A stretch of DNA of 64,000 nt from Gammaproteobacteria bacterium TMED78 (GTDB taxonomy: Bacteria > Pseudomonadota > Gammaproteobacteria > Steroidobacterales > Rariloculaceae), in assembly GCA_002171615.1 (NCBI GenBank), contig NHEF01000014.1, positions 80,974-144,973 of the forward strand. Direction: 5' to 3'. Within the stretch, counting starts at the first letter, position 1. The number at the start of each line of letters is the position of its first letter. The notes under the pieces were generated by a model. That model saw only the letters and a list, made by a program, of their open reading frames with translations, was not told where the DNA came from and did no database searches. The position numbers and the translations under genes were made by a program. Below are positions 50,832 to 63,259 of the stretch, one piece after another.

Positions 50832-51683
50832 CTATTTTATTAGATTAAGTAAATCTTTAGCTCTTTTAACTACTGGAATATCTATTACTTGATCCTTTAA
50901 GGAAGTAGATCCTCTTCCTTTTTTTTCTGCTTTTTCATATGTAGCAACTATCTCTCTTGCTTCTAATATTTCTTTTTTAGATGGGAGAAATGCTTTATTA
51001 ATGGTTTTGATTTGATTAGGGTGAATAGCAAATTTACCTCTAAATCCAATTTCTTTAGATTTCTGACAATCTATTTTTAGTTTTTTGTTATCTTTGAATT
51101 TAAAAAAAGGAGTATCAAGAGCAATTATTTTTGCCGCTTTTGCCGAAATAGAAATAATATTTTTTGCATATTGAATTTCAGAATTATCTTCAAGTCTATT
51201 AATTCCCATATCGTGTGTAAAATCTTCAGCACCAAAAGCCACACCAGATATTCTCTTACTGCAACTACAAATATCATAGCTATTTACGATAGCTTCAGCA
51301 TTTTCTAACCAAGGAATAATTTTAATATTACCAATAGCAAGTTTATTTTTTATCTCAAGCTTAGATAATATTTGTTCTAGTTTCTCTATATCTTGAGGTT
51401 TTCTTATTTTTCCTATTGATATAGCTGTTATATGAGGGCCAATAATTGCTTCTATATCATATTTAACAAATTCCGTATTAAGTGAATTAACTCTAGGAAT
51501 AATCGGTATTTTCTTTTGAGCAAGCTTTGGTATGAAATCACTTATTAGATCTCTTGCATTAGATTTTTCCTTATCAGGAACAGAATCTTCCATATCCGGG
51601 ACAAATGCGTCGGGAGAGAATGAGGCTGCTTTAAGAAGCATATTTTCCTTATTACCAGGAATAAATAAAAGACTTCTATACAT
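50832..51683 (-). CDS. HpcH/HpaI aldolase / CitE-like acyl-CoA lyase
   Basis: CitE-like TIM-barrel enzymes cleave or hydrolyse beta-hydroxyacyl-CoAs, such as malyl-CoA or citramalyl-CoA, with Mg2+. The 283-residue protein begins MYRSLLFIPGNKENM, has VPDMEDSVPD and IPRVNSLNTEF, then the metal/catalytic FGAEDFTHDMG and a GFRGKFAIHPNQI near the C-terminus. There are no CitD/CitF genes, so it is a stand-alone lyase or thioesterase rather than a citrate lyase subunit. Its ATG shares a base with the PQQ-dehydrogenase stop (TAATG), suggesting co-translation and possibly a shared pathway. Confidence 0.86.
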   Translation of the reverse strand: MYRSLLFIPGNKENMLLKAASFSPDAFVPDMEDSVPDKEKSNARDLISDFIPKLAQKKIPIIPRVNSLNTEFVKYDIEAIIGPHITAISIGKIRKPQDIEKLEQILSKLEIKNKLAIGNIKIIPWLENAEAIVNSYDICSCSKRISGVAFGAEDFTHDMGINRLEDNSEIQYAKNIISISAKAAKIIALDTPFFKFKDNKKLKIDCQKSKEIGFRGKFAIHPNQIKTINKAFLPSKKEILEAREIVATYEKAEKKGRGSTSLKDQVIDIPVVKRAKDLLNLIK

Positions 51684-53800
51684 TACTCAGGCGAAAGATC
51701 TTCTAATACATAAGTACTTATATTATTAATATCTTCGGTACTTAAGGACAGTCCAAATCCAGGCATTGCATTTAATCCATTTGTTACCTGGTTAATAATG
51801 ACTCTTAGATCTACTGCATTGGCTAGTGTTGTTCCTCCACCATGTCCACCAGAGCCATCAGTGCCGTGACAAAAAGCACAAACACCATCGTAAAGTATTT
51901 TGCCTTTATTTTTATCAGTAATAATTTCAATTTGCGATGATGTATTTGGCGTAACTAAATTTTGTTGATTAGTAGCCATAGATTCTTCTTGTTGGTTTAC
52001 TTGTTCTAGGGCTCCATCAAGAGAAAAGAGCCAAACACTATCACCTCTTTTTGATCCCATAAAAAGATTTCCAGCAGAGTAGGCAACTAAGTATTGTTTT
52101 CCATTATGCTCGAACGTACTTGTAGGAGCATTCATGCCTGCTCCAGTTTGAAATTCCCAAAGCAATGAACCATCTGAAGAATCTAGAGCAGTCAATCTTC
52201 CATCATTTCTTCCAAGAAAAACTATATCTCCAGCTGTAGAAAGAAAGCCACTATAGCATGGATCCCTAAGTCTTTGGCGCCATACAATTTTATTAGTTCG
52301 CATATCCATAGCAGCAATAATTCCTGATCTTTGAAATGGAACTCCACCGAACCTTCCTCCTAAAAACCTCTCTCCGCTGACAAAAGGTAAATCTTCCCCT
52401 TCATATCCACCTCTAAAAAAAGACATATGATCAGTTGCGCAAACATACATTAATCCAGTCCTTGGATCATATGCACTTGGTGGCCAGTTAGCACCTCCAT
52501 CATCTCCAGGGGCCATAACCTTTCCTTCTTCCATGAAGGGTGTAAATATTTTCCCTTGGTTGACAAGTGGCGGGTATCCTTCAGGTGCAATTTCGACTTT
52601 TTGAGGAACAAAGGCGTCACCTATCGGAAAGGGTTGAGTTAATGAGGTTGCTTGTCTTGGTTCTTGCATTACATGTTTTTCTTCAATGCCTATCAAGGGC
52701 GTACCGTCTTCTCGGTTTAGAATATAAAACCAACCTGTTTTACTTGCTTCTGCAAGCGCCTTATGAGTTTCTCCATCGATTTCTATATCAAATAAAACTA
52801 CAGGATTAGGTGAGTCATAGTCCCATATATCATGATGAACCTGCTGAAAATGCCATTTATATTTTCCCGTACTTGCTTCTATAGCAACTATAGAGACAGA
52901 AAAAAGATTATCACCTGGTCTTACAATTCCATTGAAATCAGGAGCGGCATTACCAGTAGAAAAGTAAATTAAATCTAACTCGGGATCAACTGCAGGCGTT
53001 TGCCAGACTGGCGCTCCTCCATAAAGATAGACATCACTATCTTGTGGCCATGTATCATGACCAAACTCTCCAGGTCCAGGTATTGTATAAAATGTCCATT
53101 CTAAGGAACCATCATTAGCATTATATGCTTTAACTCTTCCTCTAGTTCCAAATTCCCCACCAGCAAATCCAGTAATAACTAACCCATCATAATATAAAGG
53201 AGCGCTAGTGATAGTAAATCCTTCTTGCCAATCCTCTGCTTGGATATCCCAGACAATACTACCGTTTTTTTGATCTAAGGCTATTAATTTTCCATCTAAC
53301 TGCCCTACATATATTTTTCCATCTCCAAGCCCTACTCCTCTACTGGTCCATCCACAACAAATAGTCGTAGGTACTTCTGGATCAATAGAATTTTCAAGAT
53401 GAGCCTCATATACCCAAATGATTTCTCCTGTTTCTACGCTAATAGCAAAAACATCATCATTCCCCGTTATGATATATATTACTCCATCATAGATTAGTGG
53501 TTGAGCCTCACCTGAATATTTAGCTCCAAGGCCAGAGCCGTTTAATCTAGTTCTCCAAACACCCTTAAGTTCAGAAACATTAGATTTATTTATTTGATTT
53601 AAGGGGGAAAACCTTTGGTTATAGACGTTACCTCCATTTGTGATCCAATTATCTCTTGGCAATTCAACAAGCTCTTCATTAGTAAATGGAGGAGAAGGAG
53701 TAATCTCTTGAGCAAATGCTGAGCTAAAGCAGATTAGGGTTATAACTATTAAGGAAAGCTGAATTCGTAATATCGAATTTATTAAAATATTAATATTCAT
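51683..53800 (-). CDS. PQQ-dependent quinohemoprotein dehydrogenase (alcohol/methanol-type)
   Basis: This is a periplasmic quinoprotein with a fused cytochrome c, as in type II alcohol dehydrogenases. The 705-residue protein has a signal peptide ending SAFA. An eight-bladed propeller follows with blade motifs such as GSIVWDIQ and GSLLWEFQTGAG. The vicinal disulfide typical of the PQQ site is C148-C149 in TTICCGWTS. A C-terminal monoheme domain has CAFCH at about 641-645 and a probable Met ligand in AMPGFG. A calcium-type metal site is expected from the NAAPDFNG region. PQQ biosynthesis genes are not in the window. The substrate is not deducible. Confidence 0.93.
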   Translation of the reverse strand: MNINILINSILRIQLSLIVITLICFSSAFAQEITPSPPFTNEELVELPRDNWITNGGNVYNQRFSPLNQINKSNVSELKGVWRTRLNGSGLGAKYSGEAQPLIYDGVIYIITGNDDVFAISVETGEIIWVYEAHLENSIDPEVPTTICCGWTSRGVGLGDGKIYVGQLDGKLIALDQKNGSIVWDIQAEDWQEGFTITSAPLYYDGLVITGFAGGEFGTRGRVKAYNANDGSLEWTFYTIPGPGEFGHDTWPQDSDVYLYGGAPVWQTPAVDPELDLIYFSTGNAAPDFNGIVRPGDNLFSVSIVAIEASTGKYKWHFQQVHHDIWDYDSPNPVVLFDIEIDGETHKALAEASKTGWFYILNREDGTPLIGIEEKHVMQEPRQATSLTQPFPIGDAFVPQKVEIAPEGYPPLVNQGKIFTPFMEEGKVMAPGDDGGANWPPSAYDPRTGLMYVCATDHMSFFRGGYEGEDLPFVSGERFLGGRFGGVPFQRSGIIAAMDMRTNKIVWRQRLRDPCYSGFLSTAGDIVFLGRNDGRLTALDSSDGSLLWEFQTGAGMNAPTSTFEHNGKQYLVAYSAGNLFMGSKRGDSVWLFSLDGALEQVNQQEESMATNQQNLVTPNTSSQIEIITDKNKGKILYDGVCAFCHGTDGSGGHGGGTTLANAVDLRVIINQVTNGLNAMPGFGLSLSTEDINNISTYVLEDLSPE

Positions 53801-57884: not shown

Positions 57885-58949
57885 TTAAATTAGAGACATT
57901 CCTTCAACTGATACTGATTTAATGAGTGCATAGACCTCTTGCCCTTTTTTTAGAGATAGGTCTTCGTATGATTTTTTTGTTATCTTTGCTTTTATGTATT
58001 TCTTATTTATTTTCAGATTTATTTCAACTAAAAATTCTTCCAGGTTATTTATCGATTCTATCTCTGCTTTCAGTACATTTCTTATACTAAGTCCTTTAGG
58101 AAAAATAGTAGATATAGCTACATCTTTTGAATTTATATTTAATCTTATTTTCTTGCCGTTATCTAAATTTAATTTAGGTATAGAGATAAATTGACCTGAT
58201 AAATCTATTTTCGATATATCTTCGTTATGACTAATTATTTTTCCCTCAATTAATGTACTTGATTCATTATTTTCATTAGATAAAGAGATTCCTGGGCCTG
58301 ATATTTTATTAATAGAGGTAATTTTTCCACTAGACATCGTAATAACTTTATCTGCCAATCTAGTAACTTCTTCTATATTATGAGTAACATATATTATGGG
58401 AATACCATACTCACTGGGTATTCTTTCAATATAGGGAATGATGTCTTTTCTTCTTTTTATGTCTATTGATGAAAGTGGCTCATCCATAAGCATCACTACT
58501 GGCTTCCTTATGGTTGCTCTGGCGATAGCTACTCTTTGTTTTTCACCAGAAGATAGTGTTAAAGGATGTCTATCTAAAAGACTTTCTAATTCAAGTATTC
58601 TGATAATTTCATCTAGATCGAATGAGTGGTTATTTAGAGCTCTTTTTTTTGCAAATAATAAATTATCCTTTACTGACATATTATTAAATAGTCTAGAGTC
58701 TTGAAAAACATAACCAACATCCCTCAAGTGAGGCTTAATAAATAAAGGAGAATCTTGCCAAATAGTATTATCTACTTTTATTAACCCTTTAGATTTTATT
58801 TCAAGACCAGATATACATCTGAGTAGTGAAGTTTTACCAGCACCATTAGGCCCCAAAATTAAATTAATTTTACTTAGCTGTATTTCTTCATTAACTAATA
58901 AGGAAAAGTTTCCCAACTGAAGGTTTATATCAAGTACCATTTTAATCAT
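57885..58949 (-). CDS. modC: Molybdate ABC transporter ATP-binding protein ModC
   Basis: ModC hydrolyses ATP to drive molybdate uptake through ModB. The 354-residue length matches E. coli ModC (352). Seen: Walker A GPNGAGKTS, Q-loop VFQDSRLF, signature LSSGEKQRVAIARA and Walker B VVMLMDEPLSSID. The H-loop YVTHNIEE follows. The C-terminal about 100 residues contain a Mop/TOBE molybdate-binding domain ending YALIKSVSVEG. The ATG directly follows the modB stop (TAAATG). A second in-frame ATG three codons later is possible. Confidence 0.96.
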   Translation of the reverse strand: MIKMVLDINLQLGNFSLLVNEEIQLSKINLILGPNGAGKTSLLRCISGLEIKSKGLIKVDNTIWQDSPLFIKPHLRDVGYVFQDSRLFNNMSVKDNLLFAKKRALNNHSFDLDEIIRILELESLLDRHPLTLSSGEKQRVAIARATIRKPVVMLMDEPLSSIDIKRRKDIIPYIERIPSEYGIPIIYVTHNIEEVTRLADKVITMSSGKITSINKISGPGISLSNENNESSTLIEGKIISHNEDISKIDLSGQFISIPKLNLDNGKKIRLNINSKDVAISTIFPKGLSIRNVLKAEIESINNLEEFLVEINLKINKKYIKAKITKKSYEDLSLKKGQEVYALIKSVSVEGMSLI

Positions 58950-59627
58950 TTATCTGTACCTATTTAGTGGAATCTTCCTATTCATGGTATATACCGTTAA
59001 TAGAATAACGAATGAAAATATTAGAAGTCCGAGAGATAAGATATGAGCTTGTTGATAATTCAAAGTTTCTACATTCTCATAAATAGCTATAGATATAACC
59101 TTTGTTGATCCAGGTATATTTCCACCTACCATCAAAACTACTCCAAATTCTCCAAGTGTATGAGCAAAAACTAACACTGCAGCAGTTATGTAGCCTCTAA
59201 TCGACAGAGGGGAGGCTATATTAAAAAAGGTGTCAATAGGAGATGCCCCTAATAAAGATGCTGATTCAAGAGTCTTTTTACCTAATGATTCAAACGAGTT
59301 TTGTATAGGTTGAACTGCGAATGGAAGAGAATAGATTATAGAAGCTATTACGAGTCCAGTGAAAGAGAAAGTTAATGAGGATCCAGTGATATCAATCCAA
59401 AAACTTCCTATTTTTCCAGCAGGGCCTAATATTATTAAGAGATAGAATCCTAGAACTGTAGGAGGTAGAACTAGAGGCATTGCTACAAGTGCTTCAATAA
59501 AAGGCTTAATTTTAGATGAAGAATTAGCGAGCCACCAAGCTAAAGGTGCTCCTATTAATAAAAGAATAGTCGTCGTTATAAACGCAAGCTTTATACTTAT
59601 CCAAACCGGTTCTAATTCATAAATCAT
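58950..59627 (-). CDS. modB: Molybdate ABC transporter permease ModB
   Basis: ModB is the membrane channel of the molybdate importer. The 225-residue product has five to six hydrophobic helices. It contains the permease signature LAWWLANS, PLVLPPTVLGFYLLI, and the EAA-type loop ESLGKKTLESASLLGASPIDTFFNIASPLS that docks ModC. HTLGEFGVVLMVGGNIPG near the C-terminus is nearly invariant in ModB. It lies 3 nt after modA. Confidence 0.97.
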   Translation of the reverse strand: MIYELEPVWISIKLAFITTTILLLIGAPLAWWLANSSSKIKPFIEALVAMPLVLPPTVLGFYLLIILGPAGKIGSFWIDITGSSLTFSFTGLVIASIIYSLPFAVQPIQNSFESLGKKTLESASLLGASPIDTFFNIASPLSIRGYITAAVLVFAHTLGEFGVVLMVGGNIPGSTKVISIAIYENVETLNYQQAHILSLGLLIFSFVILLTVYTMNRKIPLNRYR

Positions 59628-59630
59628 AAT

Positions 59631-60371
59631 CTATTTAGTAGTGTAACCAAATTTTTCAATAATATTTTTAGCTTTTTCAGATCTTAAGTAATCCATTAAG
59701 CTGTTTGCTAGTTTCTTGTCTTTTGAGTTTCTTAGGAGAACAACATCTTGAAAAATTGGATTATGGAGATCATCAGGTACTAAAAAAAAATTTGTAATAT
59801 CTTTTTCTAGAATTTTAGATAGTGATACTATCCCGACTTTCGCATTACCTGTTGAAACCATTGTGAAAGCATGATTTATATTTTCACCATGAGCTATTCT
59901 TCCTTCCCATTCATCATAGAAGTCTAAATTATTTAAAAAATTATAAGAGGCTTTACCATATGGCGCAGTTGCAGGATTTGCAACAGCCATGAATTTAATT
60001 TCTTTATCACCCAATAGATCATATAAATCATTATAGGAAAACTTATTAATAGTAAAAATAGCCAACCTTCCTATAGCAATAGTAAATTGAGAATCCTTTA
60101 TACCTAGATTATTTTCAACTAGAATATTTGGCCTTAATTGATCTGCTGAGATAAATATATCGTATGGTGCACCATTAACTATTTGTGCGTAAAGCTTGCC
60201 ACTAGACCCGCTTATAATATTAACGCCTTCTTCTCCAAATTCCTCTACTATCCTTTCAATAGCAGGCCTAAAGTTGGACGCAACTGCTACATAAATTTCC
60301 TCACACAGTAGTTTTTTTGTAGCTAGAGGCTGAAGAAGAAGAAAAAATAAAATATATGTTATGTTTTTCAC
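59631..60371 (-). CDS. modA: Molybdate-binding periplasmic protein ModA
   Basis: ModA captures molybdate in the periplasm for ModBC. The 246-residue product has a signal peptide ending near KLLCEE. Binding-site segments are VAVASNFRPAI, NIISGSSGKLYAQIVNGAPYDIFISAD, VANPATAPYG and STGNAKVGIVSLS. Ordered modA-modB-modC on the minus strand, the system pairs with moeA, xdhC and moeB in the window. It supplies molybdenum for a molybdopterin enzyme encoded elsewhere. No obvious ModE palindrome is visible upstream. Confidence 0.95.
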   Translation of the reverse strand: MKNITYILFFLLLQPLATKKLLCEEIYVAVASNFRPAIERIVEEFGEEGVNIISGSSGKLYAQIVNGAPYDIFISADQLRPNILVENNLGIKDSQFTIAIGRLAIFTINKFSYNDLYDLLGDKEIKFMAVANPATAPYGKASYNFLNNLDFYDEWEGRIAHGENINHAFTMVSTGNAKVGIVSLSKILEKDITNFFLVPDDLHNPIFQDVVLLRNSKDKKLANSLMDYLRSEKAKNIIEKFGYTTK

Positions 60372-60410: not shown

Positions 60411-60440
60411 TTGATCATTTTTTTTAAATTGTAGTACAAT
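60411..60440 (+). promoter_or_regulatory. Putative sigma-70-like promoter of the DUF4102-UbiX gene
   Basis: TTGATC (60411-60416) and TACAAT (60435-60440) are spaced by 18 nt, a fair -35/-10 pair. Predicted transcription would begin near 60447, leaving a short leader that includes the AAAGGA ribosome-binding site. The hexamer GTAGTA is repeated ten bases apart at 60431 and 60441, and TACAATGTA is a near-palindrome; both could be a protein-binding site. Confidence 0.4.
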
Positions 60441-60457
60441 GTAGTAAAGGAAGGTTG

Positions 60458-61351
60458 ATGAAACTTGATGAAAAAATAATTAGATCAGTAAAAGCTACTG
60501 ATAAAAGGAAGCAGTTAGCTGACGGTGGCGGTCTTTATTTAGAGGTAATGCCAACTGGAAAAAAATTTTGGAGACAAAATTATAGGTATGAAGGAAAGGC
60601 AAGGACTCTAACGCATGGATTGTATCCAGATATCTCTATTAGTATTGCTAGAAGAAAAAGAGAAGAAGTTAAGTATTTATTATTAAAAAATTTAGACCCA
60701 GCTGAAAATATTAGTGATAGATACGAACAAGATATAGAGTTTTTAGAAACCCAGTTTTTATATAAACACCAAAATAAAAGAAAAATAATTATTGCGATTA
60801 CAGGCGCTTCTGGTTCTATTTATGGAATTAAAGCTCTTAAAGAGCTCAAAAATGATAGTAGTATTGAAACTCATCTTATTGTTTCAAGCTCTGGTTATTT
60901 AAATATTATTTCAGAACTAGGTATTAAAAAGAGTGCTCTAAAAAAATTGGCAGATGTAGTCCATTCTGAGAAAGATGTAGGCGCTTCAATAGCTAGTGGT
61001 TCTTTTAAAACTTCTGGGATGATTATTGCGCCGTGCTCAATGAAATCATTAGCTGCAATTGCTAATGGTTATGCAGATAATCTTATTTCTAGAGCAGCAG
61101 ATGTTACTCTTAAGGAGAGAAGAAAGCTATTACTAGTAGTAAGAGAAACACCTTTTAACTTAGCTCATCTAAAGAATATGACCAGTGTTACTCAAATGGG
61201 CGGGTTAATTTTTCCTCCTGTACCATCTTTTTATGCAAAATTAAATAATCTCGATGAGATGGTTGACCAAACTGTTGGAAGAATCTTAGACTATTTTGAT
61301 ATAGATACTGAGTTATTGAGAAGATGGGAAGGGATAAAGAATATAGAGTAA
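60458..61351 (+). CDS. ubiX: Fusion of an integrase DUF4102 arm-binding domain with UbiX flavin prenyltransferase
   Basis: UbiX attaches dimethylallyl phosphate to FMN, making the prenyl-FMN cofactor of the UbiD decarboxylase in ubiquinone synthesis. Residues 107-285 are a full UbiX: IIIAITGASGSIYG (110-123), SGSFKTSGMIIAPCSMKSLA (180-199) and VRETP (228-232). The later segment includes PPVPSFY. Residues 1-83 instead match the DUF4102 domain that precedes P4-type tyrosine recombinases: ADGGGLYLEVMPTGKKFW, TLTHGLYPDISISIARRK and NLDPAE. No ATG, GTG or TTG occurs in the linker, so one polypeptide is expected. AAAGGA supports the ATG at 60458; a TTG directly precedes it. The catalytic integrase domain is absent. 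Confidence 0.88.
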   Translation: MKLDEKIIRSVKATDKRKQLADGGGLYLEVMPTGKKFWRQNYRYEGKARTLTHGLYPDISISIARRKREEVKYLLLKNLDPAENISDRYEQDIEFLETQFLYKHQNKRKIIIAITGASGSIYGIKALKELKNDSSIETHLIVSSSGYLNIISELGIKKSALKKLADVVHSEKDVGASIASGSFKTSGMIIAPCSMKSLAAIANGYADNLISRAADVTLKERRKLLLVVRETPFNLAHLKNMTSVTQMGGLIFPPVPSFYAKLNNLDEMVDQTVGRILDYFDIDTELLRRWEGIKNIE

Positions 61352-61540: not shown

Positions 61541-62131
61541 TTATTTTGTACTTATGAGGTCTAAAAATTCTGATCTAGTTTTTGGGTCAGTTCTAAATTT
61601 TCCTAGTAGTTGATTTGTTACCATGGAAACTCCTGTTTTATGAACGCCTCTTGTAGTCATACATTGATGAACCCCCTCTATAACAACTCCTACACCTTTG
61701 GGTTTTAATACGTCTTGTATTGAATGTGCTATTTGAGAGGTCATTTTTTCTTGTACTTGTAGCCTTTTAGAAAACACATCAACTACTCTAGCGAGCTTAC
61801 TGATACCTACAACTTTTTTATCTGGAAGGTAACCTACGTGCGCTTTTCCTATAAATGGAGCCATATGATGCTCACAATGAGATTCAAAGCTAATATTTTT
61901 TAAAACTACCATTTCATCATAGCCGTCAGTTTCATAAAAAACTCTTTCTAGATAATCAATCGGATCGCTTTCATATCCTGAAAACCAATCTCCGTAGGCT
62001 TTTATGACTCTTCCTGGTGTATCAAGCAGTCCTTCTCTATTAGGGTCATCTCCTATCCAAGAGAGTAATGTCTTTACAGCATCCTGCGCTTCTTTTTTAG
62101 TAGGGCGGTCCACATTTTTTCCTTTTAACAT
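61541..62131 (-). CDS. folE: GTP cyclohydrolase I (type IA, FolE)
   Basis: FolE converts GTP to dihydroneopterin triphosphate, the first step of folate and tetrahydropterin synthesis. The 196-residue product carries the zinc ligands C86 and H89 in [10 protein letters not shown] and C157 in [31 protein letters not shown] is nearly invariant in the family. The length is somewhat below E. coli FolE (222). It could feed both folate (MetF/MetH) and, together with PhhB, a tetrahydropterin cycle. It stands alone between the ubiX fusion and xdhC. Confidence 0.97.
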
Positions 62132-62191: not shown

Positions 62192-63259
62192 ATGACTATC
62201 AAAAATATTATAGAAACATTCGATATCTGGAAAGAGAAAGAAAATCCAGTGGTCTTAGCTACTGTTTATGAGACATCTGGCTCTACATACTCCAAGGCAG
62301 GGCAGAGAATAATTATTAACTCAGAAGGTGACTATCAAGGTCTTGTTAGCGGGGGATGTTTAGAGGGGGATATAGCAGAAAGGTCAAATTCAGTAATTAA
62401 AGAAAATAAAACCGAAGTTATAACTTATGATATGAGAGATGATGCTGATGATATTTTTGGATTAGGTGTTGGTTGTAACGGGCTATTAAGAATTATATTA
62501 CAGTCCTTAACCCCAGAAAAAAATTATGAGCCGCTAAATACAATCAATAAAGTTTTATATCAAGAGAGCAGAGGTCATGATGGCTTAGTTAAACTTCTAA
62601 CCATTATTAATTCTAGTAAAAAAGGATTTTTTCCAGGAGATAATCTAATACTAGATAAAAATTCAGAAATTTTATACTCGTCTTTTTCTGAGCATTCAAA
62701 AGAAAAGTATTTAATTGAACATGAAGAATTTCTACTAGAAGAAAAAAGTATTCTTAAGAATAGCAACTCGAATGAGATTTCAGTTTTGTGTACCCCGCTT
62801 GTACCAATTCCAAAATTATTAATTTTAGGAGCTGGTCTTGACTCTTTGCCTATTATTGATATGGCATCAATATTAGGATGGCGTACAACAGTAGTAGATC
62901 ATAGACCAGCTTATTTTGAAAAAAATAATTTTAGTAATGCAGAGGAAATATTATTGTTATCAAGCCCTAAAGAATTATCGAAAAAGTGTAAACTAGGATT
63001 ATTTGATGCAGTAGTAGTAATGAGTCACCATTTAGAGAGCGACCGGATATATTTAGATCAGCTTAAGGATATACAATTATCGTATTTAGGAGTACTAGGA
63101 CCATCTGATCGTAAAAATCGCTTAATTGAATCTATCGATAAAGGTAAAGATAATTTAAAGAATAAGTTAAAAGGGCCTGTAGGCTTATCTATTGGGGCAA
63201 ATTCTCCAGAGACTATCGCTCTTTCTTTGTTAGCTGAGATTTATACTAAGATAAATTAA
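62192..63259 (+). CDS. XdhC/CoxI-family molybdenum-cofactor insertion/maturation protein
   Basis: XdhC-type proteins bind, sulfurate or insert Moco into xanthine dehydrogenase-family enzymes. The 355-residue protein has an N-terminal XdhC domain with TVYETSGSTYSKAGQRI and LVSGGCLEGDI, the conserved cysteine segment. A C-terminal Rossmann domain has LILGAGLDSLPIIDMASILGWRTTVVDHRP and ends with GPVGLSIGANSPETIALSLLAEI. No molybdoenzyme structural gene is adjacent. It converges on moeA with a 5-nt gap. Assignment to XdhC versus CoxI cannot be refined. Confidence 0.92.
   Translation: MTIKNIIETFDIWKEKENPVVLATVYETSGSTYSKAGQRIIINSEGDYQGLVSGGCLEGDIAERSNSVIKENKTEVITYDMRDDADDIFGLGVGCNGLLRIILQSLTPEKNYEPLNTINKVLYQESRGHDGLVKLLTIINSSKKGFFPGDNLILDKNSEILYSSFSEHSKEKYLIEHEEFLLEEKSILKNSNSNEISVLCTPLVPIPKLLILGAGLDSLPIIDMASILGWRTTVVDHRPAYFEKNNFSNAEEILLLSSPKELSKKCKLGLFDAVVVMSHHLESDRIYLDQLKDIQLSYLGVLGPSDRKNRLIESIDKGKDNLKNKLKGPVGLSIGANSPETIALSLLAEIYTKIN

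Follow-up and report, generated by a model that had tools for sequence, protein, structure and literature searches.

A probable in-frame capture of an integrase arm DNA-binding domain by the native ubiX gene of a gammaproteobacterium

Can the arm DNA-binding domain of a mobile-element integrase have become the N-terminus of a metabolic enzyme, and if so, what remains of either function? The question is raised by a frame in the genome of Gammaproteobacteria bacterium TMED78, located at 60458–61351 on the forward strand of the window (the whole stretch of 64,000 nucleotides that was analysed, C16:80974-144973, from a contig of 230 kb). From the ATG at 60458 to the stop codon ending at 61351 runs a single frame of 297 codons holding both domains, with a predicted product of 33.5 kDa: an Arm-DNA-bind_3 (DUF4102) domain (residues 1–83, 60458–60706), a linker with a GC content of 25% (residues 84–106, 60707–60775) and a complete UbiX flavin prenyltransferase (residues 107–297, 60776–61348), all on the forward strand. 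Coordinates, frame and domain limits had been claimed in an earlier, sequence-only reading, and came out the same when re-derived from the sequence and from profile searches. A TTG at 60455 adjoins the ATG on its 5' side and would give an alternative length of 298 aa. With the local intergenic composition, an open stretch of 106 codons has a chance of about 2e-4, and the E-values exclude that the arm-domain and UbiX profile matches arose by chance. The GC3 values of the arm (0.205), the linker (0.217) and UbiX (0.199) are similar to those of the neighbouring genes. Codon composition was also considered as a clock for the age of the fusion and rejected as uninformative, as AT-rich integrases exist (L327, L330).

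The earlier assignment of the N-terminal part to DUF4102 was borne out in Pfam, where PF13356 matched the whole protein with an E-value of 4e-19 (residues 6–84, profile positions 4–79 of 83; 69 bits against a gathering cut-off of 27). Every position that is fully invariant among 44 non-redundant integrase arms is kept in the fused arm, together with 25 of the 30 positions conserved in at least 80% of them (24–30 in the integrases), and the net charge of +8 compares with a mean of +7.8 for the integrase relatives. Searched alone, the arm part matches integrases of the family at 32–40% identity. AlphaFold2 yielded pLDDT values of 91–96 across the domain, Foldseek gave 0.7 Å between the arm model and the HAI7 integrase arm domain (PDB 3JU0), and the N-terminal domain is modelled as folded and basic, on a flexible linker in which confidence is low (pLDDT < 50 at residues 88–104). 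Short and seemingly degenerate remnants of DUF4102 integrases were also seen at two loci in the family to which the genome belongs (L140, G009:C61; L141, G008:C21).

That the C-terminal part is a complete UbiX, as had been proposed, was confirmed by NF004685 (UbiX; 7.5e-82, 274 bits against a cut-off of 188), TIGR00421 (8.8e-72, 240.6 bits against 108.9) and PF02441 (Flavoprotein; residues 109–278), which together span residues 108–292. All columns invariant among 22 relatives are kept, and the UbiX motifs PCSMK and RETP are present. Matched by motif, E153, Y259 and W290 correspond to E49, Y169 and W200 of PaUbiX, while Q271 occupies the F181 site, as in AnUbiX, whose substrate is DMAPP (PMC6541611). 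The AlphaFold2 model (pTM 0.60) has pLDDT values of mostly 85–94 in the UbiX part, which Foldseek aligned to 6QLG with a TM-score of 0.90 by target length. Crystallised UbiX proteins with a longer N-terminus are known in substrate complexes, the match to 6QLI beginning at chain residue 27 and that to 3ZQU at residue 6.

The sequence-only reading had described such an architecture as unheard of, and this agrees with what was found in the genomes, plasmids and phages searched. No second arm–UbiX fusion was found among the matches listed for 396 genomes of the order, and a search with both domain profiles in 369 genomes of the class revealed no other among the matches listed. The best 80 UbiX loci of a collection of genome contigs contained no such fusion, and among the matches listed for plasmids and phages, no record covered 80% of the fused protein. 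Any further fusion would be expected near the top of these ranked match lists. A literature search for DUF4102 together with UbiX found no joint report.

The surroundings of the gene indicate which of its two parts is foreign. A modA-like gene (59631–60371, reverse strand) lies divergently at a distance of 86 bp, beyond which follow the conserved modB-like (58950–59627, reverse strand) and modC-like (57885–58949, reverse strand) genes, while folE-like (61541–62131, reverse strand) and xdhC-like (62192–63259, forward strand) genes, likewise conserved, flank the other side. The order in the family is xdhC, folE, ubiX, (modA), modB, modC, and in one relative (G012) both gene order and orientations are identical to those of the window. 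In most relatives, ubiX starts 1–3 codons 5' of a (K/R)R-I-I motif, corresponding to residues ~104–107 of the fusion, where a start codon is missing in the window; the junction thereby falls at the UbiX start codon, as had been suggested from the sequence. Since gene order on both sides matches that of the relatives, and their ubiX starts coincide with the junction, the locus is native and the foreign DNA is confined to the 5' end of ubiX. The GGTATTCTGC element, which is present upstream of ubiX in several relatives, was not found in the window.

Some variation was observed around ubiX elsewhere. The modA-like gene is missing between ubiX and modB at four loci of g9 genomes (L282, L283, L284, L287), where modB and modC are retained. 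In G018, ubiX is immediately preceded on its 5' side by other genes, an HTH gene and a ParA-like one that hits PDC-M28B, and DISARM-like drmA/drmB genes are found close to ubiX/folE in both L285 (G018:C22, 1051–12713) and L286 (G017:C10, 11201–13660). These ParA-like, HTH and drmA/drmB genes show that foreign DNA has entered the ubiX neighbourhood in other members of the family, which suggests that the locus is an insertion hot spot. Farther away in the window, at 51683–53800, a PQQ-type dehydrogenase carries a cytochrome c domain at its C-terminus.

The genome as a whole (1.57 Mb, 28 contigs, 98.8% complete) encodes one PF13356 domain, that of the fused gene, and only two tyrosine recombinases, each in a Xer-sized frame, from which it follows that no arm-type integrase is left. 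Besides the fused gene, one further frame contains PF02441 (426 aa, CoaBC-sized), and UbiD occurs once; the fused gene is apparently the genome's only UbiX, with UbiD present. Because the active-site residues are intact and no other UbiX is encoded, the fused enzyme is presumably active. The probable explanation, in which we have fairly high confidence, is a genuine fusion at the native ubiX locus, where the 5' end of an integrase gene was captured and the product is still a working UbiX. An integrative element whose integrase was of the IntSXT/P4 type would probably have inserted between modA and ubiX, after which a deletion may have fused integrase codon ~83–95 in frame to the ubiX start, the rest of the element being lost. 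The single product would then be a functional flavin prenyltransferase supplying prFMN to the one UbiD. Weighing against this explanation, the evidence base is one metagenome-assembled genome, the sole member of its genus among the genomes compared, so that junction and selection are without independent confirmation, and neither an att site nor another element remnant was found. Similarly, a search of the genome for a second att end found no copy of the 86-bp upstream region beyond short AT-rich matches.

If the fusion is genuine, the arm may have contributed a leader and a start codon only, its DNA binding being lost or irrelevant and the domain either drifting or cleaved off. We regard the case for such a passenger as evenly balanced. 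The genome has no integrase or element for the arm to serve, and the arm profile score of 107 bits lies near the low end of the 103–144 bits of the integrase relatives (leave-one-out), a comparison that is indicative only, as the reference integrases had been selected for their similarity to the fused arm. Moreover, the arm-site motif of the relatives was not found upstream of the fused gene: with a matrix built from the tandem repeats of 14 relatives, this region scored at background, 49% of segments scoring as well or better. On the other hand, fold, invariant residues and charge are all kept, which fits constraint on the domain and recent origin from an AT-rich donor equally well.

A second sub-case of the fusion is that an operator was captured along with the arm, which would bind a tandem repeat and repress transcription of its own gene and perhaps of the divergent modABC. 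Residual DNA binding may be expected from the invariant residues, the conserved positions and the charge shared with integrases, and arm integrases, including the relatives, commonly have tandem repeats upstream of the start. Upstream of the fused gene, a sigma-70-like promoter (TTGATC-18-TACAAT, 60411–60440, forward strand), of a kind no commoner in the region than in shuffles, has its TACAAT (-10-like) box overlapped by the direct repeat TGTAGTACAA/TGTAGTAAAG (60430–60449, forward strand). This candidate operator is the sole such pair in the genome (shuffle p ~0.02, for a repeat noticed after the fact). There is also a precedent in the KplE1 integrase IntS, which represses its own gene and whose binding sites overlap the intS promoter (PMC2951348). 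However, the copies are 10 bp apart, read TGTAGTAC and lie at -28, whereas in the integrase relatives most repeats have a spacing of 12 bp, resemble GTGGGTAC and are located between about -50 and -95, and the background score of the relatives' matrix counts against an operator as well. A collection scan for TGTAGTAC pairs gave hits mostly unconnected with arm integrases; among viral loci with the pair, only 4 of 120 had a related integrase, and this was kilobases away. Hypothetical autoregulation of this kind is therefore unlikely. Still less likely is its full extension, a self-repressing DNA-binding multimer in which UbiX, with integrase arm and operator, would tie transcription of ubiX, and perhaps that of the divergent molybdate transporter, to the supply of prFMN (ubiquinone). 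The new promoter and the dodecamer displaying twelve arms, both put forward in the sequence-only reading, are likewise hypothetical.

As regards the integrase loci themselves, those with DUF4102 (L119, L130, L005 and others) showed tandem GGGGTAC/GGGGCAAC-type repeats, spaced by 10–12 bp and located ~50–95 bp ahead of the start codon; an inverted copy often lies at the start codon itself. The arrangement seems to be a common signature of the arm sites of DUF4102 integrases.

Whether UbiX could be made on its own depends on the start signals. The canonical in-frame starts are ATG 1, ATG 31 and TTG 55, the next being TTG 164, which lies within UbiX behind the GASG loop. Between codons 55 and 164, ATG, GTG, TTG and CTG are all absent in frame, a longer gap than the residues 73–110 for which the absence of ATG, GTG and TTG had been noted. 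Among the in-frame starts, a Shine-Dalgarno-like sequence (AAAGGAAGG, 60446–60454, forward strand) precedes ATG 60458 only, consistent with the claim that none stands ahead of the UbiX part. Start and AAAGGAAGG both belong to the integrase part, in line with the proposed gain of a new ribosome-binding site; read from the DNA, ubiX certainly now takes its start codon and ribosome-binding site from the integrase-derived N-terminal part. Owing to the start-free gap after codon 55 and the lack of a Shine-Dalgarno sequence at the junction, there is little scope for UbiX to be produced free of the arm domain. ATT and ATA are rare start codons; they are the only candidates in the vicinity of the junction, and one near residues 110–114 could serve for separate translation of UbiX, leaving the fusion a by-product, but this is very unlikely, as no Shine-Dalgarno sequence stands ahead of them and the first strand (108–114 in the model) would be truncated. 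An assembly chimera, conceivable for a single metagenome-assembled genome from a genus without a second one, is scarcely credible, since it requires an in-frame foreign piece of ~250–290 bp with host codon usage, placed exactly between natively ordered flanks in a 230-kb contig.

A genuine capture at the native locus would mean that the DNA-binding end of a phage-type integrase has provided a housekeeping enzyme with a new start signal, perhaps with a new switch as well. Both flanks being intact, this one locus would show how debris of a mobile element can become part of a metabolic enzyme of which the genome apparently has no other copy. If the arm still binds DNA, the gene offers a natural test of how enzyme-regulators of the PutA/BirA kind begin; if it does not, UbiX is shown to tolerate a large N-terminal passenger.

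PutA is an enzyme with a DNA-binding domain that regulates transcription. The same is described for BirA of group II (PMC4016012), and the fusion resembles both in the covalent joining of a metabolic enzyme to a DNA-binding domain; in the fusion, however, regulation is hypothetical and the DNA-binding domain derives from a mobile-element integrase. With the tyrosine recombinases of the IntSXT subgroup carrying DUF4102/PF13356 (3JU0, HAI7; 3JTZ, HPI; PMC8138268) it shares the complete arm fold and the invariant residues, but UbiX follows the arm in place of core-binding and catalytic domains, the tyrosine recombinase catalytic domain PF00589 that marks IntSXT integrases being missing, and the repeat ahead of the gene has another spacing and another sequence. 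Compared with UbiX/Pad1 (6QLG, 1SBZ, 3ZQU), the complete fold, the active-site motifs, the native genomic locus and the presence of UbiD are alike, whereas 106 residues that include a DNA-binding domain are added at the N-terminus and UbiX has no start codon of its own. Finally, F-box genes are reported as a case in which DNA-binding domains of transposases were captured by genes of the host (PMC12062965); in both cases a DNA-binding domain from a mobile element is fused to a host protein, though the UbiX fusion is bacterial, a single case and concerns a metabolic enzyme.
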